DNA of 64,000 bases from positions 62,001-126,000 of the forward strand of contig JAKOXH010000073.1 of assembly GCA_029781135.1 (NCBI GenBank). The letters run 5' to 3'. Below, one piece after another: positions 13,762 through 29,989 of this stretch; position 1 is the stretch's first letter; the number at the start of each line of letters is the position of its first letter. The notes under the pieces were generated by a model. That model was not told the DNA's origin. It ran no database searches and saw nothing but the letters and a program-made list of their open reading frames with translations. The position numbers were made by a program, and so were the translations under genes. The stretch is from Planctomycetota bacterium. Its GTDB lineage: Bacteria > Planctomycetota > Planctomycetia > Pirellulales > Lacipirellulaceae.

Positions 13762-13848
13762 ATCCATCCCGCGGGAGGCCGTCCGTGCCTTGATCGCAGT
13801 GCGACCTTGGTCCGTGCAGCCGAGACCATTTCATTGGGAGTCCGAAGA

Positions 13849-15681
13849 GTGCCGCAACGAAATCCCTACCTGGACTGTTTGCGATGGCTGGTTTTGCTAG
13901 CGATCTTCTCGTTGGTCCGGCCGGTTGTCGCGCTGGAATGGGGCCCGCTGGATGGGCCCGATTACTACGATCCCGCGCGCCATAATCCATTTGCGCGGGA
14001 CCCAGCCTTTATTGCTCCCACGCTCGATTTGTCAGGCGTTGGCCAATATCACATTTATGTTCCCGGCTTTCTCGACAACTATTTCTGGGTGACCATGATT
14101 TCGGATACGTACTACATCACCACGCTTCACACGATGGGCGCGTACTTCGCTGACCGGGACATACACTTTTACCACGACAATGATCCCACCCCGGCTGAAT
14201 CGATTGCCATCGACGACACGTATCATACCGTGCTGCGAGATGATGTGTGGATTGGGCGGCTCAAATCGGCGCCATCCAGTGCGGTGAAACGATACCCTTT
14301 AATCAAGCGACCCGAGGGCACGAACTGGGCGGGAATTCCTGGCATTGATACAGAACTCTACCTCGTAGGCGATCGCGCCGGAGAAGGGGGCGAGGCTCAG
14401 TCGCGATTAGGTCTTAACGACATTTCGCATCACTACGCGGGCGATCTTTACTTTACTTATGATTTCAACCAGCGCGGCGTCGATGAAGTGCGCACGTTGT
14501 GTTGCGATTCATCCGCTCCGTCGTTGGTCGCCAATCCGTATGCGAACTTTGCTCTTGCCGGCCTTCACCATGTCAACCAAGACGTCAATCTTTCGTCACT
14601 TGCCTCCGATATTGCAGCCGAAGTTTACAACGCGTCCGGTGGCGCGGAAAGTGTGACCGTTGTTTCCGATCTGGCCGGCGATCTGAACGCCGACTTCAAA
14701 GTCGATCAAAACGACCGCGACATCCTGTTAGGCAATTTGGGTCAAGGGCCGGGCATGCGACACATCGATGGCGATGTCAACGGGGACGGGTACGTCGATG
14801 CGTCTGATCTCTCGGCGTTGCAACTGAATTTCAATAAAACTTTGTCGGCACCGGCGGATTTCAACGGGGATTTCGCCGTGAATAAAGTAGACATGCTCGC
14901 AATCGGAAATCACTGGCATTTGACTGGGGCAACTCACGCCGATGGCGACGCCAATGGTGATGGCATCGTCGATGTTAAAGATTTCAATCTGCTCAATGCC
15001 AGTTACTTGCCCATTCCCTGGACCGCGCCACCGGCAATCGCGCCGGTCCCCGGCGATCTCACGAAAGACGGTCTGGTGGACAACGACGACTCGAACATCG
15101 TGCTTGGATGCATAACGTCCGGTTGCTCGCCGCAAGATTTTGCCAGGTCCGATATTAACAACGACGGTGTGGTTGATGCCAGTGACCTCCAAATCTTGGT
15201 TTCGAACTGGAACCCCACTGGCCCAGCCGACATCAACAATGATCTTAAGATCAACAATGAAGATATCGCCGTGCTCTTGCGAAACTGGGGTGCGACAACC
15301 AACCTTGGAAAGGCGGCCGGCGATCTGAATCTAGACGGTGTTGTCGATGCTGCCGACTATGCCATCATGACCGATTGGTGGGGCCGCGGCGTCTCGGATT
15401 TTGCGGCACAAGCTCCGCTGGTGCCGACGTTGGTGCCGGGCGATTTCAACGCCGACGGGATGGTCAATGCTGCCGATTACGTCCTGTGGCGCAAGAACCC
15501 GGTCGGCTTCCCTGCAGACGCCTACTCGACTTGGAGTTCTTACTATGGCCAGCCTGGTAGTGGCGCGGCTGCAAGGACGGGGGCCGCGGTGCCCGAGACG
15601 GCAACGTTCATGCTGTTTATCCTGGCGGTTGCAGGTATCGCGGCGCGACGGCGATGGCGCGCTGTCGAGTGTCAAAACTAA
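13849..15681 (+). CDS. Trypsin-like domain plus multiple dockerin-type repeats and PEP-CTERM-like tail
   Basis: A signal peptide (residues about 10-31) precedes a region with the S1 peptidase pattern. ISDTYYITTLHTMG supplies a His at 94. RDDVWIGRL supplies an Asp at 131/132, in the place of the D-I-A-L strand. CDSSAPSLV supplies a Ser at 221, in the place of GDSGGP. After that, residues about 276-560 hold at least six EF-hand/dockerin-like units (GDLNADFKVDQNDRD, GDVNGDGYVDASDL and similar). The C-terminus has VPETATF, a hydrophobic helix and ARRRW, a PEP-CTERM variant. Together these suggest a surface-anchored, calcium-binding protease or protease-like protein. GTG 13849 follows GGGAGTCCGAAG; a start at 13807 is possible. 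Confidence 0.75.
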   Translation: MPQRNPYLDCLRWLVLLAIFSLVRPVVALEWGPLDGPDYYDPARHNPFARDPAFIAPTLDLSGVGQYHIYVPGFLDNYFWVTMISDTYYITTLHTMGAYFADRDIHFYHDNDPTPAESIAIDDTYHTVLRDDVWIGRLKSAPSSAVKRYPLIKRPEGTNWAGIPGIDTELYLVGDRAGEGGEAQSRLGLNDISHHYAGDLYFTYDFNQRGVDEVRTLCCDSSAPSLVANPYANFALAGLHHVNQDVNLSSLASDIAAEVYNASGGAESVTVVSDLAGDLNADFKVDQNDRDILLGNLGQGPGMRHIDGDVNGDGYVDASDLSALQLNFNKTLSAPADFNGDFAVNKVDMLAIGNHWHLTGATHADGDANGDGIVDVKDFNLLNASYLPIPWTAPPAIAPVPGDLTKDGLVDNDDSNIVLGCITSGCSPQDFARSDINNDGVVDASDLQILVSNWNPTGPADINNDLKINNEDIAVLLRNWGATTNLGKAAGDLNLDGVVDAADYAIMTDWWGRGVSDFAAQAPLVPTLVPGDFNADGMVNAADYVLWRKNPVGFPADAYSTWSSYYGQPGSGAAARTGAAVPETATFMLFILAVAGIAARRRWRAVECQN

Positions 15682-15772: not shown

Positions 15773-16648
15773 TCACTCCGGTTTAGCGACCAGTTGCCCC
15801 ATCCGGCCCGCGTGGAAGTCGGCGAAGGCCTGGCGGATTTCGGCCTCCGTGTTCATCACGAACGGCCCGTGCGCGACGACCGGCTCGTCGATCGGTTCGC
15901 CGCTCAGCAACAGCAGTTTCGCATCTTGCAGCGCGGCCAGCGTCAGCGAGTCGCCCTGCCGATCGAACACGGCCAAGCCCGTGTCTCGCAGCATTTCGCC
16001 GCCAGCAAGCTCCACCTGCCCGCTCAACAGGAACAAGAGCGTGTTGTGCCCCTCGGGAACGCGAAGCTCAGCGCGGTGCCCGGCCGTCAGCCGCACGTCC
16101 CAAACATTGAGCGGGGTATAGGTTTTTGCCGGTCCGGTCTGGCGGCCGAAGGCCCCCGCGATCACGCGTACCGTGCCCGCAGCACTGGGTAATGGCACTT
16201 CCGGAATCTGCGACGCCGTAATGCCCTGGTAATGTGGCTGGGCCGACTTGTCTTTCGCCGGCAGGTTGACCCAAAGCTGCACCATCTCCAGCACGCCGCC
16301 GCGTTGAGTGAAATCGCGGCCGTGCATTTCCTCATGCACAAGGCCCGAGGCGGCCGTCATCCATTGCACATCGCCGGGGCCGATCACGCCGCCCCCGCCG
16401 GAAGAATCGCGGTGTTCGACCTCGCCGGAATAGACAATTGTGACCGTCTCGAAACCCTTATGCGGATGCTCTTCGACGCCCCGCGGTTGGTCGGACGGTG
16501 GGAACTCGGCGGGACCGGCATAGTCGAGCAGCAGAAACGGGCTGATGCGCGCGCCGTGACTATGGTGCGAAAACATGGTCCGCACCGGAAAACCATTACC
16601 GACCCAGTGGCCACGACCGGCGTGTTCGACGCTCAGGAGCTTCTTCAT
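15773..16648 (-). CDS. Pirin family protein
   Basis: Pirins are double-cupin iron proteins; some have quercetinase activity. The 291-residue sequence has the hallmark HHSHGARISPFLLLD near residues 28-42, and the metal-binding stretch HPHKGFETVTIVYSGEVEHRDS. It continues with GPGDVQWMTAASGLVHEE and a C-terminal cupin (LLFLLSGQVEL). The start at 16648 (MKKLLSVEHAGRG) matches the family N-terminus; the longer open frame runs back into wrbA. It lies 7 bases downstream of wrbA in the same operon, opposite an HxlR regulator, an arrangement seen in electrophile or quinone stress loci. Confidence 0.92.
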   Translation of the reverse strand: MKKLLSVEHAGRGHWVGNGFPVRTMFSHHSHGARISPFLLLDYAGPAEFPPSDQPRGVEEHPHKGFETVTIVYSGEVEHRDSSGGGGVIGPGDVQWMTAASGLVHEEMHGRDFTQRGGVLEMVQLWVNLPAKDKSAQPHYQGITASQIPEVPLPSAAGTVRVIAGAFGRQTGPAKTYTPLNVWDVRLTAGHRAELRVPEGHNTLLFLLSGQVELAGGEMLRDTGLAVFDRQGDSLTLAALQDAKLLLLSGEPIDEPVVAHGPFVMNTEAEIRQAFADFHAGRMGQLVAKPE

Positions 16649-16655
16649 TCTGTCC

Positions 16656-17255
16656 TCAGGCAAAAAGTTTTTTGGCGATGGTCGCGACGTGTCGGCCCTG
16701 GAAGCGGGCCTGCGCCACTTCTTTTTCGCTCGGTTGTCGCGAGCCGTCCGCCCCGGCGATCGTCGCCGCGCCCCAGGGCGAGCCACCCTTGAGTTCGCTG
16801 ATGTCGGCCAATTCCGGGCAGGTATAGGGCAAGCCGACATAGACCATGCCGTGGTGCATGAGCGTCGTCACGAAGCTGATGATCGTGCTCTCGTTACCGC
16901 CACCCGTTCCGGTGCTGGTGAAGACGCTGCCGACCTTGCCAACGAGCGTGCCCTTCACCCAGAGTCCGCCCGTCTGGTCGAGGAAGTTGCGCATCTGGGC
17001 GGTCATGTTTCCAAACCGGGTGGGCGAGCCGAAAATGATGGCATCGTAGTCGCCCAATTCCTTGGGCGACGCGACCGGCGCGGCCTGGTCGAGCTTCGCG
17101 CCCGCCTGTTTGGCGACCTCGGGCGGCATGGTTTCGGGCACGCGCTTGATTGTGACCTCCGCACCCGCGACGGATCGCGCCCCTTCGGCAATGGCGGCGG
17201 CGAGCGTTTCGACATGTCCGTACATGGAATAGTACAGTACGAGTATTTTCGGCAT
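16656..17255 (-). CDS. wrbA: WrbA-type NAD(P)H:quinone oxidoreductase (flavodoxin-like)
   Basis: WrbA reduces quinones with two electrons, using FMN and NAD(P)H, and so avoids semiquinone radicals. The 199-residue protein starts with the FMN-binding loop ([19 protein letters not shown]). It contains [37 protein letters not shown] and the C-terminal [19 protein letters not shown] segment, all diagnostic. Length is normal. The start at 17255 is chosen because an upstream in-frame ATG adds nine non-conserved residues. It leads the wrbA-pirin operon, read divergently from the HxlR gene. Confidence 0.95.
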
Positions 17256-17377
17256 GGTTTTCCTTTCGGGCGGTTGCGGCACCGGACGACTTCCCTTAAC
17301 TTTTAGGCCGGTAGCAGCAAAACTTCAAGTATGGTCAATCTTGTAAGCCAGTATCTCCAATGATACCGAAGGGTCCG
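17256..17377. promoter_or_regulatory. Divergent promoter region between wrbA and the HxlR regulator
   Basis: This 122-base gap must carry both promoters and, by analogy with other HxlR systems, the operator. AGTATGG and AGTATCT occur at 17330 and 17350 as a loose direct repeat, but I see no convincing palindrome. Confidence 0.35.
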
Positions 17378-17734
17378 ATGTCCAAGCCTCGGGGGCGACA
17401 GAACAACAAGAAGAACGTGAGCTGTCCCGTTGAAACCACGATCGCGGCGATTGGCGGGCGCTGGAAGGTGCTCATCATCCACCACCTGCTGGAGGGCACG
17501 AAACGCTTCGGCGAATTGGCCCGCTTGCTGGGCGGCGTGTCGCCACGCACGTTGACCCGCCAACTCCGCGAGTTGGAAGAATGCGGGATCATCGACCGGT
17601 ACATCCATCAACAAATTCCACCGAAGGTCGAATACTCGTTGACGCCTTTGGGGCGGAAGCTAAAGCCCATCCTCTACGCGATGCACGATTGGGGAGTGGA
17701 AGCGGAAAGGAGCCATGCTCGGGCCAGAAAATAA
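17378..17734 (+). CDS. HxlR-family winged-helix transcriptional regulator
   Basis: This 118-residue protein shows the full HxlR pattern: CPVETTIAAIGGRWKVLIIH, LLEGTKRFGELARLL, the recognition helix GVSPRTLTRQLRELEECGII and the wing PPKVEYSLTPLGRKLKPIL. The single Cys near residue 17 (SCPVE) is where HxlR members such as YodB and HypR sense quinones or oxidants. Given the divergent wrbA-pirin operon, the simplest inference is that it controls that operon in response to quinone or electrophile stress. ATG 17378 is preferred because GAAGGG lies just upstream; ATG 17360 would add six residues. Confidence 0.9.
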   Translation: MSKPRGRQNNKKNVSCPVETTIAAIGGRWKVLIIHHLLEGTKRFGELARLLGGVSPRTLTRQLRELEECGIIDRYIHQQIPPKVEYSLTPLGRKLKPILYAMHDWGVEAERSHARARK

Positions 17735-18460: not shown

Positions 18461-19342
18461 ATGTCTGTTTTTGAAGAACCGGATTTTCGTCCCACGGAGG
18501 CGGCCACCGCCCAGTCGCGTTTCTTGCCGGGTACCAGTATTGAGATCATTCGCGATGTCCAGCGAGCAGCGCCGCCCGAGCATGTGCTGTTCGATTTCGA
18601 TGGTACGCTGAGCCTCGTGCGCGAGGGCTGGCCGGAAGTCATGGTGCCCCTGATGGTGGAGGTGCTGCAAGGCACCGGCACGAAGGAGTCGCATGACGCA
18701 CTTTATAAGCTGGCGTATGACTTCGTGATGGAACTTACCGGCAAGCAGACGATCTACCAGATGATTCGCCTCGCCGAGGAGGTCACCAAGCGTGGCGGCA
18801 CGCCGCAGGATCCGACGGAGTACAAACAGATGTACCACGATCGGCTGATGGAGCGGATCTGGACGCGGCGCGAAGACCTGCGGAGTGGACGGGTTCCGCC
18901 GGAGGAAATGGTTGTTCCCGGCAGTATTGATTTGCTGAAGGGCCTCAAAGCCAAGGGGCTAAAACTCTATTTGGCGAGCGGTACCGATGAGAACTACGTC
19001 AAGGAAGAGGTGACGCTCCTGGGCCTCGATCCATATTTCCACGGGCGCGTTTACGGGGCTGTCGACGATTACAAGACATTTTCAAAAGCCCACGTCATTC
19101 GTCGCATCCTCGATGTGAACAAAGTGGATGGGGCGCGGCTATTGGGCTTCGGTGACGGCTACGTCGAGATTCAGAACGTGAAGGATGTCGGCGGAATTGC
19201 CGTGGCCGTTGCCAGCGATGAAGCGAATCGCAGCGGCAAGCCGGATCAGTGGAAACGCGACCGCCTGGTGAGCGTCGGGGCGGACATGGTGATTCCCGAT
19301 TATCGCGAGCACGAGCAGGTGATTGATTACGTGTGGAAGTAG
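18461..19342 (+). CDS. HAD-superfamily phosphatase, probably acting on a sugar phosphate
   Basis: This 293-residue protein carries HAD motif I as VLFDFDGTLS (Asp near residues 44 and 46). A Thr/Ser motif II lies in LYLASGTDENY. A Lys in the KAHVIRRIL stretch is a candidate motif III. Motif IV is GFGDGYVEIQNVKDVGG. A helical cap is inserted between I and II. It is the first gene of a cluster with a PfkB-type kinase and a GmhA-type isomerase, so it may fill the GmhB role, removing a phosphate from a heptose bisphosphate. It is longer than classical GmhB, so the substrate is inferred from context only. ATG 18461 is the first Met after the stop-free leader. Confidence 0.8.
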   Translation: MSVFEEPDFRPTEAATAQSRFLPGTSIEIIRDVQRAAPPEHVLFDFDGTLSLVREGWPEVMVPLMVEVLQGTGTKESHDALYKLAYDFVMELTGKQTIYQMIRLAEEVTKRGGTPQDPTEYKQMYHDRLMERIWTRREDLRSGRVPPEEMVVPGSIDLLKGLKAKGLKLYLASGTDENYVKEEVTLLGLDPYFHGRVYGAVDDYKTFSKAHVIRRILDVNKVDGARLLGFGDGYVEIQNVKDVGGIAVAVASDEANRSGKPDQWKRDRLVSVGADMVIPDYREHEQVIDYVWK

Positions 19343-19440
19343 TGCCGCGACTTGGTAGCGCTTTTCCTCTCCCGGCAGTGGAGGAAATTCGTACTATTGA
19401 TAGCTGTGCGGCAAATGACCCATCGCTTGTTTAACACCGT

Positions 19441-19481
19441 GCCAACGGCGAGGCGAAACGTTGCGCTGAGTCGCCGTTGGC
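19441..19481 (+). promoter_or_regulatory. Hairpin in the leader between HAD and the next gene
   Basis: GCCAACGGCGA and TCGCCGTTGGC form a perfect 11-bp stem around a 19-base loop. It lies in the 202-base gap before the deoxyhypusine-synthase-like gene. It may be a terminator, attenuator or transcript-stabilising hairpin. Confidence 0.45.
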
Positions 19482-19544
19482 TCCGAATTAAACGACTTGC
19501 CGACGCTGCACGCAAGCGAATTATTGATGATTTGGAATACCGTC

Positions 19545-20654
19545 ATGCCCTACCCACAGTTTGATCGTTTCGCCGTCGCGATGCAGCCGCTCTCGGCGCG
19601 AATCAATAAGTTTGAAATTGAAACGAAGGCGGTGTCGCCGGAGCGTGAGCCTGGCGAGTTGCCTACGGCGTCGCGGGAGATGATTGCCGAACTGGCCCAG
19701 CGGATTCGCGCGGCCAGGAAGAATGGCAAGCCGGTTGTATGTGCGTTCGGCGCCCATTCCATCAAGAACGGCTTGGGCCCTGTCTTCACCAAGCTAATTG
19801 AAGGCGGTTGGCTCACGCACTTAGCGACGAACGGTGCCGGCGTAATTCACGACTGGGAGTTTAGCTACCTCGGCAAAAGTTGTGAAGACGTTAAGAAGAT
19901 GGTAAGCGAAGGCCGGTTCGGCAACTGGCAGGAAACCGGCTTCTTCATCAACTTGGCGCTCAACATCGGTGCTTTCGAGGGCAAGGGCTACGGTGAATCG
20001 GTCGGCTCGATGATCGAGTCGGAAGGCCTGCAAATTCCCTCGGTCGACGAGTTGCAGTCAATCGTCGTTCAAGCGATTAAGTCCGATCCGCAGCATGCCG
20101 CTGCGGCCAGCGATCTCTTGAACGTTGTGCAGAAGTTTAAGTTGGCGGCGGGGTGGATGAAGATCCCTCACCGTTGGAAGCAATACAGTGTGCAGGCGAA
20201 CGCGTTCCGGCTGGGCGTGCCATTCACGGGTCACCCGATGTTCGGTCATGACATCATCTACAACCATCCGATGAACAACGGCGCTTGTTTGGGACGTTGC
20301 GCTGAGCGTGATTTTCTGACGTTTGCTGAGAACATCCGCAAGATCGATGGCGGTGTTTACATTTCGATCGGTTCGGCCGTCATGAGCCCGATGATTTTCG
20401 AAAAGTCGCTTTCGATCGCGAACAACGTGGCGATTCAAGCGGGCGGGCCGCTAGCTAATTACTTTATCCAGGTGGTCGATTTGGCGGCCTGCTCGTGGGA
20501 TTGGTCGAAAGGTGAGCCGCCGGAAGATAATCCGGCATACTACTTACGCTACAACAAGACGTTCAGCCGCATGGGCGGCACGATGAAATACTTGCAGGCG
20601 GATAATCGCGATTTCCTGCTTGGTCTTTTGCAGCAATTGGGGAAAGAAGGATGA
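19545..20654 (+). CDS. Deoxyhypusine-synthase-like protein of unknown function
   Basis: The 369-residue cytoplasmic protein has motif order reminiscent of the NAD-dependent deoxyhypusine synthase fold. KPVVCAFGAHSIKNGLGP is followed by THLATNGAGVIHDWEFSYLG (compare the DHS TTAGGVEED... region). Then come FTGHPMFGHDIIYNHP and GGVYISIGSAVMSPMIFEK. The typical DHS active-site Lys could not be located. Its reaction is therefore unknown. It overlaps the PfkB gene by four bases, so it is translationally coupled to the sugar-phosphate genes. ATG 19545 is chosen by family-like N-terminus; an ATG about 18 bases upstream is possible. Confidence 0.55.
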   Translation: MPYPQFDRFAVAMQPLSARINKFEIETKAVSPEREPGELPTASREMIAELAQRIRAARKNGKPVVCAFGAHSIKNGLGPVFTKLIEGGWLTHLATNGAGVIHDWEFSYLGKSCEDVKKMVSEGRFGNWQETGFFINLALNIGAFEGKGYGESVGSMIESEGLQIPSVDELQSIVVQAIKSDPQHAAAASDLLNVVQKFKLAAGWMKIPHRWKQYSVQANAFRLGVPFTGHPMFGHDIIYNHPMNNGACLGRCAERDFLTFAENIRKIDGGVYISIGSAVMSPMIFEKSLSIANNVAIQAGGPLANYFIQVVDLAACSWDWSKGEPPEDNPAYYLRYNKTFSRMGGTMKYLQADNRDFLLGLLQQLGKEG

Positions 20655-21715
20655 GCGCTCCCGAGTTAACTCAAGCGCGATTGGCGGAGTTGATCGCCCG
20701 GTTTCCACAGGTGCGGATCGCCGTGGTGGGCGACTTCTTCTTGGATAAATATCTCGACTGCGACCCCGAGATTCAGGAAAGCAGCGTCGAGACCGGCCGG
20801 GCCGCGCATCAGGTGACGCGGATTCGCACGTCGCCCGGTTGTGCCGGCACGGTGATGTGCAATTTGTCGTCGCTGGGCGCGGGCACGCTACACGCCATCG
20901 GCATGACGGGCGAGGACGGCGAGGGCTACGACCTGCGCCGGCGGCTCAACGAACTGCGTTGCGGCACCGACCACCTGCACGCGGCGGCCGACCGCATGAC
21001 GCCCACCTATTTGAAGCCGCGCAACATGCGCGATCCATCCCTTGCCGGCGAGCACGATCGGTACGACACGAAGAACCGCACGGAAACCTCGGCGGCCACC
21101 GAAGAGCTAGTGATCAAATCGATTGATGCGCTGCTTCCGCACGTCGATGCGATGTTGATCATGGATCAGGTCGAGGAAACCAACCGCGGCGTCATTACCG
21201 ATCGTGTGCGCGAATTTCTTATCAGCCGGGCGCCGAACTACCCCAAGGTGGTGTTTTGGGCCGATAGCCGGCGGCGGATTCGTAAGTATCGCAACGTGAT
21301 GATCAAGCCGAACGAATTCGAAGCGCTGGGTCGCGATATGTGGTGGCCCAATGAAGAGGTTGATCTGGCGACACTGCGGACGGCGACCGAAAAATTGCGC
21401 GGCGAAGTCGGTGCACCGATCGTGGTCACCCGTGGCGCGCTGGGCATGATCGTGACCGACCCCGAATGGACCATCGTGCCGGGTGTTCGCGTCGATGGTG
21501 AAATCGACCCCACCGGCGCCGGTGATAGCGCAAGCGCTGGGATGGCGATGGCTTTGTGCTCCGGGGCCCTGTTGCCTGAAGCGGCGATTGTCTCGAATCT
21601 CGTTGCGTCGATCACGGTTCAGCAATTGGCGACAACGGGCGTCGCGCGACCGGATCAACTCCCCGAACGATTGGCACTTTGGCAAAAACAAGTGGATGAA
21701 AGGAAGAACAAGTAA
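20651..21715 (+). CDS. PfkB-family carbohydrate kinase, RfaE/HldE kinase-domain type
   Basis: The 354-residue protein has the ribokinase fold of heptose-7-phosphate kinases: an N-terminal VRIAVVGDFFLDKYLDCD, a glycine-rich PGCAGTVMCNLSSLGA and the anion-hole/catalytic DPTGAGDSASAGMAMAL near residues 285-300. By family it would phosphorylate C1 of a heptose 7-phosphate using ATP. Unlike bifunctional HldE it has no C-terminal cytidylyltransferase/adenylyltransferase domain, and no such gene is nearby. Its ATG overlaps the preceding stop (ATGA), and its stop overlaps the SIS gene start (TAATG), so the three are tightly coupled. Confidence 0.85.
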   Translation: MSAPELTQARLAELIARFPQVRIAVVGDFFLDKYLDCDPEIQESSVETGRAAHQVTRIRTSPGCAGTVMCNLSSLGAGTLHAIGMTGEDGEGYDLRRRLNELRCGTDHLHAAADRMTPTYLKPRNMRDPSLAGEHDRYDTKNRTETSAATEELVIKSIDALLPHVDAMLIMDQVEETNRGVITDRVREFLISRAPNYPKVVFWADSRRRIRKYRNVMIKPNEFEALGRDMWWPNEEVDLATLRTATEKLRGEVGAPIVVTRGALGMIVTDPEWTIVPGVRVDGEIDPTGAGDSASAGMAMALCSGALLPEAAIVSNLVASITVQQLATTGVARPDQLPERLALWQKQVDERKNK

Positions 21716-22293
21716 TGACGGTTCAAGGAACTAAGAAGGGTTTTGCCCGCACGTATTTGGATGATCTCGCCGAGGTCGTGAAAAAGGTCAACGCGGAGGC
21801 TGTTGAGAAGGCGATTTTGTGTTTGCGCACCGCCCGTGATGCCGGCCGAACCATTTACTCGTGCGGCAACGGCGGCAGCGCGAGTATCGCCTCGGAAATG
21901 GTCGTCGATGTCATCAAGGGCTGCTCGTACGGCAAGCAAAAGCGTTTCCGCATGATCGGCCTTTCGGATAGCGTCGCCACGATCACCGCGTATGCGAACG
22001 ATGTGAACTACGAGTGCGTGTTCGTCGAGCAGCTCAAGAACTGGGCCGAAAAAGGCGATGTGTTGATTGCCATCAGCGGCAGCGGCAACAGCCCGAATGT
22101 GCTGCGGGCCGTCGAATATGCGAACTCGGTCGGCGTGGAAACGATCGGTTGCACCACCGGCGAAGGCGGAAAATTGCGGGAAATCTCCAGCTTGCCGCTG
22201 CTTGTGCCGTCGAAACATATGGGGCACTTGGAGGACTGCTTCTACATCATGACGCATATTTTGTGCTATGCGTTCATCGAGGACCGCTACTAA
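21715..22293 (+). CDS. gmhA: SIS-domain phosphosugar isomerase, GmhA-like
   Basis: GmhA converts sedoheptulose 7-phosphate to D-glycero-D-manno-heptose 7-phosphate. The 192-residue length is right. The SIS landmarks are present: GRTIYSCGNGGSASIASEMV, LSDSVATITAYANDVNYECV, then GDVLIAISGSGNSPNVLRAV and a C-terminal His-rich HMGHLEDCFYIMTH. It is the last gene of the coupled heptose set. The exact substrate is inferred from similarity and context. Confidence 0.85.
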   Translation: MTVQGTKKGFARTYLDDLAEVVKKVNAEAVEKAILCLRTARDAGRTIYSCGNGGSASIASEMVVDVIKGCSYGKQKRFRMIGLSDSVATITAYANDVNYECVFVEQLKNWAEKGDVLIAISGSGNSPNVLRAVEYANSVGVETIGCTTGEGGKLREISSLPLLVPSKHMGHLEDCFYIMTHILCYAFIEDRY

Positions 22294-22300
22294 ACCAACG

Positions 22301-22510
22301 AGAAGGGGACGGGAGTCAATTACGGGTGAGGCGTGACGGCAAGGCGAGCCGTCGGCCCGTAATTGACTCCCGTCCGGCTCTATAGAAAACATAGCCCGGC
22401 CCTCTGGGCCGGACGTGCCAGCCGTTTCCATCGTCGAGTTTCCCGCATCGTTTCGCCGACCCGAAACGGGTCGGCTATATGTTTTCTACAGAGCCCTCCC
22501 GTCCCCTTTT
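22301..22510. repeat. Composite nested palindromic element (about 210 bp)
   Basis: Outer arms AAGGGGACGGGAG (22303-22315) and CTCCCGTCCCCTT (22496-22508) enclose two further hairpins. The first has perfect 20-base arms at 22307-22326 and 22356-22375, sharing the outer left arm, with an inner GACGGC/GCCGTC stem. The second has GGCTCTATAGAAAACATAGCC-like arms at 22376-22396 and 22473-22495, with inner hairpins CCGGCCC/GGGCCGG and GCCGACCCG/CGGGTCGGC. The whole fills the gap between gmhA and the next gene. It looks like a non-autonomous repeat inserted into another. Confidence 0.75.
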
Positions 22511-22520
22511 GGCCACCGTG

Positions 22521-23432
22521 ATGGATAGCCACTATTCGCGACCGCTGGGCTGGACGGGATTGCACGTGCCGCCCATATTGTTTGGCACGGCCGCCCTGGG
22601 CAATGTCCGCCGCGTAATAACCGACCAGGCGAAGCTGGCGATCGTGGGCGAGTGGTTTCGGCAAGTGCAACCGCCGGTGTTTGTGCAAGCGACGTATGCC
22701 CATGGCGCTGGTGCGGCCCTCGAAGTGCTGGCGCGCGCGTTACAGCGGCTTGAAATTGCCGGCGATGAGATCCTTCTCCAACTTGCCACGGACGGGGCGG
22801 TTCAAGAGTGTTGGGAAAAGAGTTGCCGTTTGTTGGAAGACGCCTATCGGCCCAAGTTAATTGTGGCGGCTGCGAAAGACCTGAAGGCCTGGCAGATAGC
22901 TCGTGGCCTGCGTGATTCAGGGCAGGTCCTGGCGGCAGGACTTTGCATTTCTGGCCATGGCCTAGCGACTGCGTCCGAAAACCTTCCTTACGACGAGGTC
23001 GACTTTGTTGAGTTAGTCGGCGGCTATACCCTGATGCGACATTCGCCTGCTGCCGTGTCGCTGCTGCACCTGCTTGCCGAGCGGCAAATTCCGGTCATCC
23101 TATCGGGTGTGTTCGAGGGCGGGTTTTTGGTCGGCGGCAATCGGTTGGATGGCCGCGTTTTGAATTCCGAGGATTCCGCCGATCGCTCGATACTCGCATG
23201 GCGGAAGTCGTTCGTCACGCTCTGCGATGGCCACGGCATTTCGCCCGCCCATGCCTGCCTTCAGTTCGCGCTATCGCTCCCCGGCATAATCGCGGTCCGG
23301 CTGGATTCGACGTACGCCGATCGGGTGGCAGAGAATGTTTATGCGGCGTACACGAAAGTGCCCGATAATTTCTGGGCCTCGATGAAAGAAGAAGGCCTAC
23401 GGAGTCAGGATTATCCATTGCTGGGGGGCTGA
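22521..23432 (+). CDS. Aldo/keto reductase-like protein with degenerate active site
   Basis: The 303-residue protein starts like an aldo/keto reductase (RPLGWTGLHVPPILFGTAALGN) and keeps the TIM-barrel order, including a late SPAHACLQFALSLPGI segment. The usual D-T-A-x-x-Y-G is VQATYAHGAG, so the catalytic Asp is absent while the Tyr may remain. The strand that should carry the Lys reads DEILLQLATD, and the following His strand reads PKLIVAAAKD. It may therefore be a non-reducing or repurposed member. ATG 22521 comes directly after the palindromic element at 22301-22510; an in-frame start at 22479 would lie within that element. Confidence 0.7.
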   Translation: MDSHYSRPLGWTGLHVPPILFGTAALGNVRRVITDQAKLAIVGEWFRQVQPPVFVQATYAHGAGAALEVLARALQRLEIAGDEILLQLATDGAVQECWEKSCRLLEDAYRPKLIVAAAKDLKAWQIARGLRDSGQVLAAGLCISGHGLATASENLPYDEVDFVELVGGYTLMRHSPAAVSLLHLLAERQIPVILSGVFEGGFLVGGNRLDGRVLNSEDSADRSILAWRKSFVTLCDGHGISPAHACLQFALSLPGIIAVRLDSTYADRVAENVYAAYTKVPDNFWASMKEEGLRSQDYPLLGG

Positions 23433-23565: not shown

Positions 23566-23598
23566 TTGACGCACTACGATACATTTGTACAGTTATAA
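23566..23598 (+). promoter_or_regulatory. Candidate promoter and operator of the mutasome cassette
   Basis: TTGACG at 23566-23571 resembles a -35. About ten bases on, TACATTTGTA at 23580-23589 is a TACA-N2-TGTA inverted repeat, and GTTATAAC at 23592-23599 is a second short palindrome at the -10 position. An SOS repressor site is expected in front of such a cassette. The TACA/TGTA palindrome is the best candidate, but it matches no LexA box known to me. Confidence 0.35.
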
Positions 23599-23632
23599 CA
23601 GCGAGAGTGCTAGCACCGAGGTAAGGAGTGCC

Positions 23633-24565
23633 ATGAGCTGTTCCTCTCAATCTGAAGGTGTCGCGTTGTCGCAGCGAAGAGGGGCTTTGCCAACTGATTC
23701 ACGCGAGCGGCTAGTGGAGGGTTTGCGGCAACAGTTGGGGCAATGGGCCAGTACAAAAACCAGGGAGGCCAATGTATTTTCATGTGGCGTGGCAGCGATC
23801 GATCGGCTGCTGCCCGCTGGCGGCCTACGACACGGGATGCTCGTGGAATGGATGATGACGCCCGTAGCAGCAGGCGGCTCGCCTGCCGCAAACGCGGAAA
23901 CAAGAGCACCAAAATTGAGACGGATAGGCGCGCCACCGGTTGCTACGAATGGCACGTTCACCTTATCGCTGCTGGGAGCCCGTGAGGCTTGCGGCGAAGG
24001 AGGCGTCTTGGTGGTGATCGATCGCACGCGAACTTTTTATCCACCCGCAGCCGCGGCATGGGGAATTGATTTGGAGCGAACGATCGTAGTCTGGCCGCAA
24101 AATGCGCGTGATGAACTGTGGGCGGCCGTGCAATCGCTACGTTCACCGGTTGTGGCGGCGATGTGGGCCAACATCGACCGCTTGGATAGCCGGGCATTTC
24201 GCCGACTGCAGTTGGCGGCCGAGGCCGGGCGAACACTGGGCGTACTCGTGCGGCCAGCGGGCGCGCGGGGGCAGCCCTCGTGGGCAGATGTGCGGCTGGA
24301 AGTGGAGTCAAGAGCTAAGAGTCAAGAGTCAAGAGCCAGAGGCTTGGCTCTCGACTCTCGACTCTCGGTTCTTGACTTACTTCGTCGCATGGAAGTGCGG
24401 CTTGTTCACTGTCGCCAGGGCCGCGCCGGCGGCAGAGCGATGGTCGAGATAGATGATGTACATCGGACCGTGCAAGGAGCTAGTTCGAACTATGACACGC
24501 ATGCTTTGCCTGTGGTTACCCAATTGGCCGATCCAACGAGCCGTTCGCACTCGGCCCGAGCTTAA
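23633..24565 (+). CDS. imuA: ImuA-like RecA-fold protein of the mutasome
   Basis: ImuA is an accessory factor of damage-induced mutagenesis with ImuB and DnaE2. The 310-residue protein contains the ImuA-style core VFSCGVAAIDRLLPAGGLRH, a GVLVVIDRTRTFYPPAAAAWGI strand-helix, RTIVVWPQNARDELWAAVQSL and RTLGVLVRPAGARGQPSWADVRL. There is no clear Walker A. Two palindromic stretches lie in frame within it: a small hairpin at 23870-23886 and a larger block at 24305-24377 (peptide SRAKSQESRARGLALDSRL). ATG 23633 follows TAAGGAG. Its last 74 bases overlap the start of imuB in another frame. Confidence 0.75.
   Translation: MSCSSQSEGVALSQRRGALPTDSRERLVEGLRQQLGQWASTKTREANVFSCGVAAIDRLLPAGGLRHGMLVEWMMTPVAAGGSPAANAETRAPKLRRIGAPPVATNGTFTLSLLGAREACGEGGVLVVIDRTRTFYPPAAAAWGIDLERTIVVWPQNARDELWAAVQSLRSPVVAAMWANIDRLDSRAFRRLQLAAEAGRTLGVLVRPAGARGQPSWADVRLEVESRAKSQESRARGLALDSRLSVLDLLRRMEVRLVHCRQGRAGGRAMVEIDDVHRTVQGASSNYDTHALPVVTQLADPTSRSHSARA
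23870..23886. repeat. Small in-frame hairpin inside imuA
   Basis: GCAGGCG and CGCCTGC pair around GCT. The surrounding peptide (TPVAAGGSPAANAETRAPK) is low-complexity and has no obvious place in the ImuA core, so it may be a repeat remnant. Confidence 0.4.
24305..24377. repeat. In-frame palindromic block inside imuA
   Basis: The left half is repeated GAGTCAAGAG-type sequence. The right half is repeated GACTCTC and TTCTTGACT. The two halves are complementary over about 30 bases with mismatches. The block keeps the reading frame and adds about 24 residues between the conserved WADVRLEVE and LLRRMEVRLVH segments. Confidence 0.75.
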
Positions 24566-26309
24566 AGGCCGGCCGCTGGTACTGGTGATGAACAGGCCGC
24601 GCGGTGGAGAAGTGGCGGCATGTTGTAGCGAGGCCGTCGCGCAAGGCGTGCGGCCGGGGATGCCGGTGGCCGAGGCGCAATCGTTAGCGCGAGGTTTAGT
24701 GATCGCGGCGTACGATGCCGAGGCGGATCGGCAGGCGTTAGTAAAGTGTGCCGAGGCCTGCGAGCGGTTTAGTCCGCGCGTGGCTATCGAAGAGGGGCCT
24801 GAGCCGGAGAGTTTGCTGCTGGATATTTCCAATCTCGAACATCTGTGGGGCAGCGAAAACCGGCTAGTCGAAGAGGCGAAGAAGTTTTTCGCACGCCGTG
24901 GATATGTCGTGCGCTGGGGCGTAGCCGAAACCGTGGGAGCGGCCTGGGCCGCGGCGCATTTCGAGGGAAATTTCGGATTACAGATTGCGGATTGCGAATT
25001 GCAGCGAGCCGGGGCGTCCTCGCCCCCAGCCGGAGCGGAGGACCGCCCGGCTCGCCTCGAGTCGCTTCCAGTTCAATCGTTGCGCATCAGCCAGGAAACC
25101 GCGGCCATACTTCGAGAATTGGGAATCGAAACGATTGGTCAATTAGCAACCCTTCCGCGCGAGGCGCTGGCCGCTCGGTTTGGCGAAGAGTTGCTATGGC
25201 GACTCGATCAGTTGACCGGCGTGGGGCGAGAGGTCATCGAACCGCGTCGAGCACGGTCGGCCTTCGACGTGAGTTATGCGTTGGAAGAACCGACGAGTGA
25301 TCGCGGTGCATTGTTGCACGTGCTCGAGCAACTGGTGGAGCAGCTGACACGGCAGTTGGCGGCACGAGACCAGGGCGCGGTGGTGTTGGAGTGTTGGCTG
25401 TATTTGGCGGGTGGCACGCCCGGAGTCGGCGACGGGCGTGGTGTTATTGACGATTGCATTGACAATGATTGGCCGTTTAGCCGCGACGCGGAGCGGAGCG
25501 CGCACTGCTCGTTCATTGTCACTGCCAAACCCAATAGTACGGCGACCACGCCCTTCGCAAAGCCTCAGGGCGTACCACCCCAATTACTGCGCGTGGGGTT
25601 GCTGCAACCATCGGCATGTGCACGCCAATTGCTGGAACTCGTCAAACTTCATTTGGAAGCCGTGAAATTGGCGGGTGAAGTCGATCGCGTGGAGTTGCGT
25701 GCCGCAGTCGTGGGGCGACTGGGCGAACGGCAGGGCGAATTGTTTGCCGACCGCTGGTCGACAAACCCGCACCAACTGGCGGTGTTAGTAAACCGGCTCA
25801 CGAGCCGATTAGGGCATAACCGTGTATTGCGTGCCGAGTTGCGAGCGAGCGCAGTGCCCGAGCGGGCGGTGCGGTGGGGAGAAGTTGCGAGGCGCGAGGT
25901 GCGAGGTGCGAGACGAAAAGACAAGAAGACAAGGAGACAGGGAGACAAGGAGAGGGAAAAGCAAGGAGATTCACAGGCATGGCATGATACTGGAGTCTCC
26001 TTGTCTCCCCCTCTCCCCCTCTCCCCCTCTTCTTATCTCCCGCCGCGTCCTTTGTCGCTGTACCCCGTGCCGCAGCCTATGGAAGTAGTCTGCGTGGCGC
26101 CCGATGGTCCGCCACAAGCGGTGTGGTTAGGCGGGCGGCGCGAATCGATTGTGGCGTACGCGGGGCCCGAGCGAATCGAGTCATTGTGGTGGCGCGGGCC
26201 CTCGGTGCGGCGCGATTACTATCGCATCGCGACCGAGTCAGGAAGTCATTTATGGCTATGCCGGCGACTGGCAGGCCGGCGCTGGTTCCTGCACGGTGTA
26301 TTTGTTTAA
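24492..26309 (+). CDS. imuB: ImuB, catalytically inactive Y-family polymerase homologue
   Basis: ImuB scaffolds the error-prone DnaE2 on the beta clamp. The protein has the expected N-terminus (MTRMLCLWLPNWPIQRAV) in place of the Y-family catalytic Asp. It also has RPLVLVMNRPRGGEVAACC, a LLLDISNLEHLWG stretch where active enzymes carry Asp-Glu, and helix-hairpin-helix residues LRELGIETIGQLATLPREALAARFGEELL. At 605 residues it is longer than usual. The excess lies in three in-frame repeat blocks at 24975-25057, 25434-25553 and 25896-26043. ATG 24492 is chosen; ATG 24501 is the alternative. Position between imuA and dnaE2 supports the call. Confidence 0.88.
   Translation: MTRMLCLWLPNWPIQRAVRTRPELKGRPLVLVMNRPRGGEVAACCSEAVAQGVRPGMPVAEAQSLARGLVIAAYDAEADRQALVKCAEACERFSPRVAIEEGPEPESLLLDISNLEHLWGSENRLVEEAKKFFARRGYVVRWGVAETVGAAWAAAHFEGNFGLQIADCELQRAGASSPPAGAEDRPARLESLPVQSLRISQETAAILRELGIETIGQLATLPREALAARFGEELLWRLDQLTGVGREVIEPRRARSAFDVSYALEEPTSDRGALLHVLEQLVEQLTRQLAARDQGAVVLECWLYLAGGTPGVGDGRGVIDDCIDNDWPFSRDAERSAHCSFIVTAKPNSTATTPFAKPQGVPPQLLRVGLLQPSACARQLLELVKLHLEAVKLAGEVDRVELRAAVVGRLGERQGELFADRWSTNPHQLAVLVNRLTSRLGHNRVLRAELRASAVPERAVRWGEVARREVRGARRKDKKTRRQGDKEREKQGDSQAWHDTGVSLSPPLPLSPSSYLPPRPLSLYPVPQPMEVVCVAPDGPPQAVWLGGRRESIVAYAGPERIESLWWRGPSVRRDYYRIATESGSHLWLCRRLAGRRWFLHGVFV
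24975..25057. repeat. In-frame GC-rich palindromic block inside imuB (copy 1 of the LQRAGAS element)
   Basis: GCGAGCCGGG (25004-25013) and CCCGGCTCGC (25046-25055) are perfect arms, preceded by GGATTACAGATTGCGGATTG. The block encodes LQRAGASSPPAGAEDRPARL. A closely similar stretch (CAGCGAGCCGGGGCGTCC, then CGCCCCC) recurs in dnaE2 at 29153, where it encodes LQRAGASPPPA. Confidence 0.8.
25434..25553. repeat. In-frame palindromic block inside imuB
   Basis: Outer arms GGGCGTGGT (25434-25442) and ACCACGCCC (25545-25553) and inner arms GACAATGA (25461-25468) and TCATTGTC (25513-25520) nest correctly. The encoded 40 residues interrupt the polymerase little-finger-like region, between LYLAGGTPGVG and PPQLLRVGLLQPSA. 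Confidence 0.75.
25896..26043. repeat. In-frame purine-arm/pyrimidine-arm block inside imuB
   Basis: The left arm is repeated GGAGACAAGGAGA-type purine sequence. The right arm is TCTCCTTGTCTCCCCCTCTC. The encoded peptide includes KTRRQGDKE and then a Ser/Pro/Leu-rich tail. A near copy lies in dnaE2 at 26905-27054, encoding TTRRQGDKE. Confidence 0.85.
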
Positions 26310-26333
26310 CCGTTGCCGAAAACAAGAGCGGTT

Positions 26334-26496
26334 CACGCAAAGACGCAGAGGCGCAAAGAAGACAAAAGAAAGGCTCTAAACCGCTAATTCACGCTAATAA
26401 ATCCGCTAATGAGAGAAGCGAAATACTTTTCCTTATTAGCGATCCATTAGCGGTTTGAAAACATATTTTAACTTTGCGCCTCTGCGTCTTTGCGTG
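26334..26496. repeat. Nested palindromic element between imuB and dnaE2
   Basis: Perfect 25-base arms occupy 26334-26358 (starting CACGCAAAGACGCAGAGG) and 26472-26496 (ending CTGCGTCTTTGCGTG). Inside are AAACCGCTAAT / ATTAGCGGTTT (26378-26388 and 26446-26456) and GCTAATAA / TTATTAGC (26393-26400 and 26433-26440). The transcript would form one long hairpin between the two genes. The arm sequence is of a kind widespread in bacterial intergenic repeats. Confidence 0.85.
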
Positions 26497-26527
26497 AGAT
26501 TTACTAACGTGAGTAGCGGCTGGCCCA

Positions 26528-29500
26528 ATGCATTATGTAGAACTGCATTGCAAAACGAACTTCTCCTTCCTCGAAGGCGCGTCGCATGCCGACGAATTGG
26601 TGCGGCGCGCGGCCGAGTTGGAGTACCGCGCGCTGGCGGTGACGGACCGCAACAGCCTGGCGGGCGTGGTGCGGACCCACATCGCGGCCAAAGAGGTCGG
26701 CTTGCCGCTGATTATCGGCGCGGAAATCACCCCGCTCGACGCGCCGCCCATCGTGTTGTGGGCAACCGACCGAGCCAGCTACGGCCGGTTGTGCCGGCTG
26801 ATCACTCGCGGACGTCGGCAAGCGCCGAAAGGCGAATGCGTGCTCACGCTGAAGGACGTGGCCGAATTCGCAGCAGAATTAGTGGCAGGGGTCGTTGTTG
26901 AGGGGCGAGAAGCGAGGAGCGAGGAGCGAGGAGAAACGACAAGGAGACAAGGAGACAAGGAGAATCCTATAACAAGCGATACCTCTGAGTCTCCTTGTCT
27001 CCCCCTCTCCTTGTCTCCTTGTCTTTCTGTCCCCCCCTCTCCTTGTCTTCTTTCTGCCTATCGTGACATTTTCCCCGGCCGCTGCTACTTATTAGCAGAA
27101 CTCGTACGCGGAGCGGATGATCGCGCGCGGCTTGCAGCGTTGCAGCAGCTTTCGCACGCTATGGGTATACCACTCGTGGCGGCGGGCGATGTGCATTATC
27201 ACGTGCCCGGCCGAATGGTGCTGCATGATGTACTCACCGCAATTCGGCATGGCACGACGGTATCGGCAGCCGAGGGAACGCTATTATTTCCCAACGCCGA
27301 GCGGCACTTGCGATCGCTCGAAGAGATTCGCGAGTTGTTTGCCGACGCGCCGGAGGCGATCGCGCGGACCATCGAAATTGCCGAACGCTGCCGGTTCTCG
27401 CTCGATGAGTTGAAGTACGAATACCCCACCGAACTCGCGCCGGTAGGCCAAACGCCCCTCGAGTACCTGACGCAACTTACTTGGCAAGGCGCGGCCGAGC
27501 GCTACCCGGCTGGGCTATCGGAAAAAGTGCGGCAACAGATCGAGTACGAACTACAACTCGTTGGCGAACTGCACTACGAATCGTACTTTCTTACCGTGTG
27601 GGACTTAGTGCGCTTCGCCCGGTCACGGAATATCTTGTGCCAGGGCCGCGGCTCGGCGGCGAATTCGGCCGTATGTTTTTGTTTGGGCGTGACATCCGTC
27701 GATCCTGCGCAAAGCGACCTGTTGTTCGAGCGCTTTATCAGTCGCGAGCGGAACGAAGCGCCGGATATCGACATCGACTTCGAGCACCAGCGGCGCGAAG
27801 AAGTATTGCAGTACGTGTACGACAAGTATGGCCGCGAACGGGCCGGCTTGGCCGCAACGGTCATCACCTACTGCAGCCGGTCGGCCATTCGCGATGTCGG
27901 CAAGGCGTTGGGCCTGTCGCTCGATCGCGTCGATGCGCTGGCGAAACACGTGGAAGGCTACACACGCGAGCCAAAACTCGTAGGGCGGTGCCGTGACGTG
28001 GGCATCGAGCCAAATTCCGACCTGGGCCAGCGGCTGATTTATTGCGTGAACGAAATCATCGGCTTTCCCCGCCATTTGTCGCAGCACGTGGGCGGGATGG
28101 TCATGACGCAGGGACCGCTGTGCGAAATGGTGCCCATCGAAAACGCGGCCATGGAAGATCGCACGGTCATTGAATGGGATAAAGATGACCTTGATGAACT
28201 CGGCATCTTGAAGGTGGATTGCCTGTGCTTGGGAATGCTCACCGCGATTCACAAATGCTTTGACCTGGTGCGCGAGCATTACGGCCGCGAGCTGACGTTG
28301 GCGACGATCCCGCCAGATGACGCGGCCGTGTACGACATGATTTGCCGGGCCGATACGATCGGCGTGTTTCAAATCGAGAGCCGCGCGCAGATGTCGATGC
28401 TGCCGCGGCTACAGCCCAAATGTTTTTATGACCTGGTAATCGAAGTGGCGATCGTGCGGCCGGGGCCGATTCAGGGGAACATGGTGCATCCCTACCTACG
28501 ACGGCGAGCAGGCGACGAACCGGTAACCTATCCCAACGAAGCGATTCAGGCCGTGCTCAAAAAAACATTGGGCGTGCCGATTTTCCAAGAGCAGGCCATG
28601 CGGTTGGCCGTTGTGGCGGCCGGGTTTACACCGGGCGAGGCAGACCAATTGCGGCGGGCGATGGCGGCGTGGCGGCGGCCCGGGCTCATCGAGCAATTTC
28701 GGCAGAAGCTACTCGCCGGCATGCAGGCCAACAACTTGCCGGAAGAATTTGCTCAGCGCGTTTATCAACAGATCGAAGGGTTTGGCGAGTACGGCTTTCC
28801 AGAATCGCACGCGGCGAGCTTCGCGCTCTTGGTGTATGCCTCGGCCTGGCTCAAGCATTATTATCCCGCGGCGTTCGCGACCGCGATGATCAACAGCCAG
28901 CCGATGGGATTTTATCAGCCAGCCCAACTCGTCCGCGATGCCCGCGACCACGGCGTGGCCGTGCGGCCGGTGGATGTGAATTGGAGCGAATGGAAGTGTA
29001 GCCTGGAGCAAGGAGCAGGGAGCGAGGAGCAGAAGGAAGAAATGCAAAATGCAAAATGTAAAATGCAAAATGCGAATTGGGGAAGTTCCGCAATGACAAA
29101 TTTGCAATTTGCAATTGGCAATTTGCAATCGTCAACTTTGCAGTTTGCCCTCCAGCGAGCCGGGGCGTCCCCGCCCCCGGCCCTCCGCCTCGGCCTTTGC
29201 ATGCTCAACGGCCTGCGCGAAGCGGTTGCGAAGACAATCGAACGCGCACGAACAGGAGGGCCGTTCGTGTCGATTGATGACTTCACCCGCCGCACCGGCC
29301 TGGGGCAAGCGGTGGTCAAGCAACTGGCCGAGGCGGACGCCTTTCGTTCGCTCGGGGCAGGGCGACGGCAAGCACTATGGCAAGCACTCGGGCAAGAAAA
29401 GAAGCGCCGCGAGATGCCATTATTTGAGGCCCGCGAAAATATCCCCCTAGCCGGACGGCCACGCCGTCCGGTCCCGGCGGATAGTAACCCGCCGGCTATG

Positions 29501-29989
29501 GAGTTCATTCAATGCAATGACAACGAAATGGACAAAAACGTCCCGCTGCCAGCCATGAAACCTTATGAAGAAGTCGTGGCCGACTATCGAACCGCTGGCT
29601 TATCGCTGCGCGCACACCCCATCTCGTTTTATCGCGAGCAGTTGGCGAAGTTAGGCGTCACGCCCGCGAGCGGGTTAGTGGGCCTCCCTAACGAAACGCC
29701 GGTCATCGTGGCGGGCTTGGTACTCTTGCGTCAACGGCCGGGCACGGCGAAAGGAATTACCTTCGTTACGCTCGAAGACGAAACCGGCACCGCGAATTTG
29801 GTCGTGCACCAACAAACGTGGGACCGGTTTTACCGCATCGCCCGACGTGCTCCCGCCTGGATCGCCCACGGTCACGTTCAAACTGCACCGGGACAGTTCG
29901 CAGCGGTAATCCACGTAGTGGTGAAATGCTTGGAAGCACTCGGCGAGCAGTTGCGCCAACTCGATGTCAAAGCACGGGATTTTCGCTAG
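26528..29989 (+). CDS. dnaE2: DnaE2 (ImuC) error-prone DNA polymerase III alpha subunit
   Basis: DnaE2 is the catalytic polymerase of the ImuA-ImuB-DnaE2 translesion mutasome. The 1153-residue protein has an N-terminal PHP domain (YVELHCKTNFSFLEGASHADEL). The polymerase site APDIDIDFEHQRREEVLQYV holds catalytic Asp residues near 413-417. Other segments are FPRHLSQHVGGMVM, GVFQIESRAQMSML, a helix-hairpin-helix region and a C-terminal OB fold (TFVTLEDETGTANLVVH). Three in-frame repeat blocks (26905-27054, 29008-29185, 29449-29498) lengthen it. It begins 218 bases after imuB, with a long palindrome between, and probably shares that transcript. Confidence 0.95.
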   Translation: MHYVELHCKTNFSFLEGASHADELVRRAAELEYRALAVTDRNSLAGVVRTHIAAKEVGLPLIIGAEITPLDAPPIVLWATDRASYGRLCRLITRGRRQAPKGECVLTLKDVAEFAAELVAGVVVEGREARSEERGETTRRQGDKENPITSDTSESPCLPLSLSPCLSVPPSPCLLSAYRDIFPGRCYLLAELVRGADDRARLAALQQLSHAMGIPLVAAGDVHYHVPGRMVLHDVLTAIRHGTTVSAAEGTLLFPNAERHLRSLEEIRELFADAPEAIARTIEIAERCRFSLDELKYEYPTELAPVGQTPLEYLTQLTWQGAAERYPAGLSEKVRQQIEYELQLVGELHYESYFLTVWDLVRFARSRNILCQGRGSAANSAVCFCLGVTSVDPAQSDLLFERFISRERNEAPDIDIDFEHQRREEVLQYVYDKYGRERAGLAATVITYCSRSAIRDVGKALGLSLDRVDALAKHVEGYTREPKLVGRCRDVGIEPNSDLGQRLIYCVNEIIGFPRHLSQHVGGMVMTQGPLCEMVPIENAAMEDRTVIEWDKDDLDELGILKVDCLCLGMLTAIHKCFDLVREHYGRELTLATIPPDDAAVYDMICRADTIGVFQIESRAQMSMLPRLQPKCFYDLVIEVAIVRPGPIQGNMVHPYLRRRAGDEPVTYPNEAIQAVLKKTLGVPIFQEQAMRLAVVAAGFTPGEADQLRRAMAAWRRPGLIEQFRQKLLAGMQANNLPEEFAQRVYQQIEGFGEYGFPESHAASFALLVYASAWLKHYYPAAFATAMINSQPMGFYQPAQLVRDARDHGVAVRPVDVNWSEWKCSLEQGAGSEEQKEEMQNAKCKMQNANWGSSAMTNLQFAIGNLQSSTLQFALQRAGASPPPALRLGLCMLNGLREAVAKTIERARTGGPFVSIDDFTRRTGLGQAVVKQLAEADAFRSLGAGRRQALWQALGQEKKRREMPLFEARENIPLAGRPRRPVPADSNPPAMEFIQCNDNEMDKNVPLPAMKPYEEVVADYRTAGLSLRAHPISFYREQLAKLGVTPASGLVGLPNETPVIVAGLVLLRQRPGTAKGITFVTLEDETGTANLVVHQQTWDRFYRIARRAPAWIAHGHVQTAPGQFAAVIHVVVKCLEALGEQLRQLDVKARDFR
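26905..27054. repeat. In-frame purine-arm/pyrimidine-arm block inside dnaE2
   Basis: GACAAGGAGACAAGGAG in the left half and GTCTCCTTGTCTCCCCCTCT in the right half are complementary. The block encodes TTRRQGDKE and then a Ser/Pro/Cys/Leu-rich tail. It interrupts the PHP domain between EFAAELVAGVV and YRDIFPGRCYLLAEL. The imuB block at 25896-26043 is related. Confidence 0.85.
29008..29185. repeat. In-frame compound repeat inside dnaE2 (AT-rich arrays plus LQRAGAS element)
   Basis: GAGCAAGGAGCAGGGAGC leads into tandem ATGCAAA units (29041-29073). After those come TTTGCAA-type units of the opposite sense (29100-29131) and the GC-rich stretch shared with imuB at 25002. The peptide (QNAKCKMQNAN, then LQFAIGNLQSS, LQFALQRAGASPPPA) sits between PVDVNWSEWKCSLEQ and LRLGLCMLNGLREAV. 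Confidence 0.8.
29449..29498. repeat. In-frame nested hairpins inside dnaE2
   Basis: TAGCCGG (29449-29455) pairs with CCGGCTA (29492-29498). CCGGACGGC (29451-29459) pairs with GCCGTCCGG (29463-29471), and CCGGCGG (29474-29480) pairs with CCGCCGG (29489-29495). The peptide is GRPRRPVPADSNPPAM. Confidence 0.65.

Follow-up and report, generated by a model that had tools for sequence, protein, structure and literature searches.

In Geobacter, the gene GSU2086 stands between hldE (GSU2085) and gmhA (GSU2087). In an electrode-growth gene table based on Tn-seq, the values of hldE, GSU2086 and gmhA were -3.1, -3.2 and -3.7, respectively, and mutants of the three genes showed the same fitness defect (PMC5585712). 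NCBIfam collects the relatives of GSU2086 as NF052581 (GSU2086_dom) under the title 'GSU2086 family protein', and the family has no named function. Its closest profile relative outside the family is TIGR00300, which NCBIfam titles 'ornithine cyclodeaminase, nickel-pincer nucleotide-dependent'. The genes larC, larE and larB are the three genes of nickel-pincer nucleotide (NPN) biosynthesis. In about 15% of analysed genomes, larA is missing although larB, larC and larE are present, and a non-LarA NPN protein whose fold is distinct has been predicted (PMC11796402).

The locus described here lies in a 64,000-nucleotide stretch of a Planctomycetota genome, and this whole stretch is called the window. 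At positions 18461-22293, the genes of a HAD-superfamily protein, a 369-residue GSU2086 family member, a PfkB-family kinase and a SIS-fold protein are collinear on the + strand. As in Geobacter, the family member has an HldE-type kinase and a SIS protein of the GmhA type as neighbours. In contrast to the Geobacter genes, the window protein is of a subtype of about 370 residues with an insert, the kinase has no nucleotidyltransferase domain, and a HAD protein with a C1 cap is added.

Results

Gene layout of the locus

The positions of the genes are given in Table 1. The start of the PfkB gene overlaps the end of the gene for the 369-residue protein by 4 bases, the start of the SIS gene overlaps the end of the PfkB gene by 1 base, and 202 bases separate the HAD gene from the gene that follows it.

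Table 1. Features of the four-gene locus, in window positions
Feature	Position	Strand	Remarks
HAD-superfamily phosphatase/phosphomutase, C1 cap	18461..19342	+	DFDGT, SGTDE, K209 and GDGYVE motifs intact
DHS-fold protein, GSU2086 family (NF052581), 370-residue subtype; proposed hidden-redox sugar epimerase	19545..20654	+	
HD.E motif codons (H102-D103-x-E105)	19848..19859	+	common to ornithine cyclodeaminase (TIGR00300); absent in bacterial DHS
P282-x4-K287 codons	20388..20405	+	motif and spacing from HD.E common to TIGR00300
PfkB-family sugar kinase, HldE-domain-I-like, without nucleotidyltransferase domain	20651..21715	+	catalytic GAGD present
SIS-fold sugar isomerase-like protein, GmhA relative, altered active site	21715..22293	+	
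GNGGSASIASEMVVD in SIS gene	21865..21909	+	positions of GmhA D61/H64/E68 are I/E/D

A divergent aldo/keto reductase (PF00248) is encoded just after the SIS gene (22479-23432, +). It was considered as a fifth member and rejected, having no homologue in any fetched related locus, and it probably stands outside the module. Directly downstream, 23585-29989 (+) looks like an imuA-imuB-dnaE2 mutasome cassette. It encodes a protein of 326 residues that has no match in Pfam, a polymerase-like protein of the Y family (IMS) and a polymerase of the DnaE type. On the other side, pirin and WrbA-like flavodoxin genes on the - strand and a divergent HxlR-type regulator gene on the + strand (15773-17734) look like a redox-stress unit. 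At 13807-15681 (+), a large protein is encoded that has dockerin type I repeats and, judged by eye, an apparent C-terminal PEP-CTERM-type sorting signal.

The 369-residue protein has a DHS-like fold

The 369-residue protein matched NF052581 with 312.9 bits (cut-off 250) over positions 1-300 of the 301 in the profile, and no significant match was found in Pfam. Its AlphaFold2 model, built with 39 sequences in the alignment, reached a pLDDT of 90.3. In a Foldseek search of the PDB with this model, the best match was deoxyhypusine synthase (DHS, 7cmc, E 1.9e-8), followed by the AgrE/ArgZ ornithine cyclodeaminase and the LOR/SDH protein 3c2q, and all of the top 50 matches were DHS, AgrE/ArgZ or LOR/SDH. 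The earlier note on this DNA had proposed a DHS-like fold for the protein, and the predicted structure confirmed that it belongs to the DHS-fold superfamily; no different known fold appeared among these 50 matches.

The likeness to DHS itself is confined to the overall fold. The identity is 10-13%, there is no eIF5A or polyamine context, and the WGK catalytic-lysine motif of bacterial DHS is absent from the GSU2086 family. Short-form members of the family have no lysine at the site aligned with K338, an equivalence that was judged by eye. A true DHS function of the 369-residue protein was therefore rejected, as the catalytic lysine is not conserved.

Instead of WGK, 109 of the 110 family members carry an HD.E motif, which bacterial DHS lacks. 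This motif is shared with AgrE/ArgZ and LOR/SDH (TIGR00300), together with a P-x4-K motif at matching spacing. The lysine of P-x4-K is offset from HD.E by +137 to +140 in short-form examples, by +185 in the long form, which carries an insert, and by +135 in TIGR00300, where the equivalence between the family and TIGR00300 was set by eye and hhalign backs the HD.E region only. K287 of the window protein may be the lysine that anchors the cofactor. The differences from the TIGR00300 proteins are nevertheless large: the identity is 12-16%, the N-terminal LOR/SDH or arginine-dihydrolase domain is missing, and the gene context is that of sugars rather than amino acids. In the literature searched, NPN was linked with none of ornithine cyclodeaminase, deoxyhypusine synthase, ornithine and heptose, and DHS neither with GmhA nor with sugar kinases.

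The partner enzymes are related to heptose enzymes to different degrees

The HAD protein matches PF00702/HAD far beyond chance and its catalytic motifs are intact, which agrees with the HAD phosphatase that had been placed in a heptose route. However, the GmhB model gave no match to it in a profile search. It is C1-capped and is nearest to beta-phosphoglucomutase and small-molecule phosphatases, and therefore it is not GmhB, which is a capless HAD-III protein.

The kinase matched PfkB with 4.5e-20. Its best subfamily was rfaE_dom_I (TIGR02198) with 127 bits, below the cut-off of 345. It keeps the catalytic GAGD and has no cytidylyltransferase domain. The lack of the cytidylyl/adenylyl domain of HldE, as claimed before, was thus borne out, and the corresponding model TIGR02199 was not matched elsewhere in the 93.6%-complete genome either.

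The SIS protein matched SIS_2 with 2.4e-19, and its best subfamily was gmhA with 102 bits, below the cut-off of 209. When it was aligned to GmhA of B. pseudomallei, D61, H64 and E68 were found to be replaced by I, E and D, and QE-x-H by LEDCF. We take D61, H64, E68 and QE-x-H to be the metal-binding/catalytic residues of GmhA. Near relatives of the window SIS protein carry the same changes (I/E-or-Q/D), whereas in most other phyla the SIS proteins encoded near the DHS gene have retained the canonical GmhA residues. Because these positions are changed, the description of the protein as GmhA-like holds at the level of the fold only, and not for the active site.

The host genome has no recognisable ADP-heptose pathway

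In the host genome, which is 93.6% complete, the adenylyltransferase of HldE domain II (TIGR02199) had no match at E<=0.001, and the best match to HldD (TIGR02197) reached 144.5 bits against a cut-off of 274.6. Since the HldE nucleotidyltransferase and HldD are both missing, the four genes do not belong to an ADP-heptose pathway. According to the earlier note, its proposal would be refuted if other parts of the genome held a nucleotidyltransferase for ADP-heptose and the complete pathway. The same two results led us to reject this, and no ADP-heptose nucleotidyltransferase was found.

The gene set is conserved in many phyla

A scan of genome contigs gave 331 homologous stretches. The 80 loci that were kept show 57-74% identity and come from Planctomycetota, Verrucomicrobiota, Bacteroidota, Hydrogenedentota, Spirochaetota and others. 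The HAD-DHS-PfkB set was found again in many phyla. In Planctomycetota, the DHS gene lies between the HAD gene and the PfkB gene. In Bacteroidota, Lentisphaerota, Sumerlaeota, KSB1 and others, a single PfkB-HAD fusion of about 633 residues adjoins the DHS gene, which is a Rosetta-stone link. The full window order HAD-DHS-PfkB-SIS was found again on a Chloroflexota plasmid (52, 31, 37 and 43% identity, respectively), where it follows the genes of an ABC importer for sugars and of a Gfo/Idh/MocA oxidoreductase. Other neighbours elsewhere are genes of an SSF symporter, a GlcNAc-2-epimerase-like protein, GH92 and GH38 mannosidases and D-lyxose isomerase. These contexts favour sugar uptake and interconversion, and in this direction a nucleotidyltransferase is not needed.

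Several of the fetched stretches contain no recognisable partner of the DHS gene; the partners thus recur but are not universal. In conclusion, the four genes that had been grouped in the window are a real, conserved bacterial sugar module.

Two forms of the family differ in their relation to HldD

The tree of the GSU2086 family separated a form that is mostly about 300-330 residues long (22 rows) from a form of about 370 residues (88 rows), and the window protein falls in the latter. The short form adjoins hldE, gmhA and lpxK in Planctomycetota, belongs to a cluster of surface-glycan genes on a plasmid of Solidesulfovibrio, and is also the form found between hldE and gmhA in Geobacter. Among HldE-positive genomes, HldD was present in 0 of the 50 with the short form versus 4 of the 10 without the family (p=0.0004, with no correction for phylogeny). 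The position beside hldE and gmhA and the consistent lack of HldD make the short form a candidate replacement of HldD, and suggest that it may replace this enzyme. The reaction proposed for the short form would be analogous to that of the ADP-heptose 6-epimerase HldD, and the two are mutually exclusive in occurrence. The proteins are of different kinds, HldD being an SDR that uses NADP, and the window genome is one without the ADP-heptose pathway. The absence of HldD can alternatively mean that D-glycero-heptose is used directly, without epimerisation. Two genomes in which the long form is the sole form of the family do carry HldD, and the long form is therefore not simply a substitute for HldD but has a different job.

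At one locus from the same order as the host (L142, 6346-8348), a HAD protein 65% identical to that of the window adjoins a 325-residue short-form member, and the genome has no HldE. The module is thus found with the short form of the family too. At the locus L141 (9801-10433, -), a 210-residue protein is encoded next to lpxK; it contains a stretch resembling IscB/Cas9d (49 bits, below the cut-off), which is probably an HNH domain.

Links between the family and NPN biosynthesis

In the Calditrichaceae locus L082, the genes are arranged as larC-larE-larB-SIS-DHS-SSF on one strand, and the LarE protein is intact with its SGGVDS motif. No other physical linkage of lar genes to the GSU2086 family was found among the fetched loci. 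In Bacteroidota, LarC was found in 8 of 8 family-positive versus 2 of 72 family-negative genomes; the Fisher value of 1.6e-9 is inflated by kinship, because the positives are related and cluster in the protein tree. Two Bacteroidota genomes, G452 and G425, have LarC without the family, and G452 also has no LarA. Across phyla, LarC was present in 41 of the 50 long-form genomes. It was not detectable in the other nine, one of them of 7.6 Mb, and incompleteness may or may not be the reason. Five genomes have LarC and the GSU2086 family but no LarA.

The host genome itself encodes LarC (233 bits). Inside Planctomycetota, the co-occurrence with LarC was set aside as uninformative for the cofactor, since LarC is near-ubiquitous there (39/40 family-positive versus 22/25 family-negative genomes, p=0.29). 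Two plasmids carry the GSU2086 family, and neither was among the best 30 of the 98 plasmid matches to LarC.

DHS uses NAD, and the PDB titles of the DHS-fold relatives 6lrg (AgrE), 1dhs and 8a0f state that they were crystallised with NAD+. Taking the genomic associations and the motifs together, the cofactor of the DHS-fold protein may be NPN, which we favour, with NAD as a serious rival.

Discussion

The best explanation of our results is a four-gene sugar-interconversion module around a DHS-fold hidden-redox epimerase that uses NPN or else NAD, and we give this explanation an even chance of being right. The DHS-fold protein would epimerise or isomerise a manno- or heptose-type sugar or sugar phosphate via hidden redox, in which a pyridinium cofactor would take a hydride from a carbinol carbon and then give it back. 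It would share this type of chemistry and, if the NPN assignment is right, the cofactor with LarA and the NPN hidden-redox epimerases, although its fold and sequence are unrelated to those of LarA. Phosphorylation of the sugar, probably at C1, would be the task of the HldE-like PfkB kinase. The HAD protein, which is usually paired or fused with the kinase, would remove or move the phosphate, and the SIS protein would interconvert the aldose- and ketose-phosphates, leading to the pentose-phosphate/glycolytic pool. The favoured direction would be the assimilation of imported sugar. We infer the cofactor, the substrate, and the order and direction of these steps. The 369-residue protein had been described as having no recognised role in sugar metabolism; the partner and cofactor genes narrow this statement and point to a hidden-redox epimerase, possibly dependent on NPN rather than NAD.

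A more specific reading can be put forward only tentatively, namely that the GSU2086 family consists of non-LarA, DHS-fold, NPN-dependent sugar epimerases, of which the short form replaces HldD in the biosynthesis of ADP-heptose and the long form drives the kinase/HAD/SIS assimilation module. It is possible, though we lean away from it, that the module is the same but its DHS-fold protein is an ordinary NAD(H) enzyme (an epimerase, dehydrogenase-transferase or cyclase) like DHS, and that the lar links are lineage effects. The NAD+ structures of the DHS fold, the nine long-form genomes without LarC and the non-discriminating distribution in Planctomycetota agree with an NAD(H) enzyme. They have to be set against the operon of the DHS gene with larC-larE-larB in L082, the distribution of LarC in Bacteroidota and the five family-positive genomes that keep LarC without LarA. 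Moreover, the WGK lysine is not conserved in the family, while the P-x4-K and HD.E motifs common to TIGR00300 are. It is very improbable that the protein is a true deoxyhypusine/polyamine-type aminobutyl transferase with sugar genes beside it by chance. DHS provides its top structural matches, but the family has no WGK lysine, genuine bacterial DHS proteins are distinct from it and weakly related, and the association with a sugar kinase, phosphatase and isomerase recurs.

A biosynthetic heptose route would run from sedoheptulose-7-P through heptose-7-P and heptose-1,7-bisphosphate to heptose-1-P. In it, the DHS-like enzyme would epimerise the heptose, and its activation would fall to an unrecognised nucleotidyltransferase. 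The kinase and SIS protein are indeed nearest to HldE domain I and GmhA, the DHS gene in other phyla is paired with SIS proteins in which every catalytic residue of GmhA is retained, and short-form relatives are found within hldE/gmhA operons. We nevertheless consider this route unlikely for the window, whose host genome has neither TIGR02199 nor HldD. Chloroflexota is a largely LPS-free phylum, and the same four genes stand there beside a sugar importer. The standard conversion of sedoheptulose-7-P to heptose-1-P, which the earlier note had favoured, did not hold up: the GmhA residues of the SIS protein are lost, the HAD protein is not GmhB-like, and the importer and symporter contexts fit sugar uptake better. 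Its hint that the DHS-like protein may act on a heptose-type intermediate fared better, as relatives occur in hldE/gmhA operons and share the fitness defect in Geobacter (PMC5585712).

Returning to the hidden-redox epimerase, the GSU2086 family is a specific candidate for the predicted non-LarA NPN protein. If the NPN reading is true, it would help to explain how the cofactor is used in bacteria that make NPN without LarA, its only well-studied enzyme. It would further assign a function to a hypothetical protein that is conserved in many phyla and behaves like the LPS heptose genes in Geobacter, and lineages without HldD would gain a candidate for their missing heptose epimerase.
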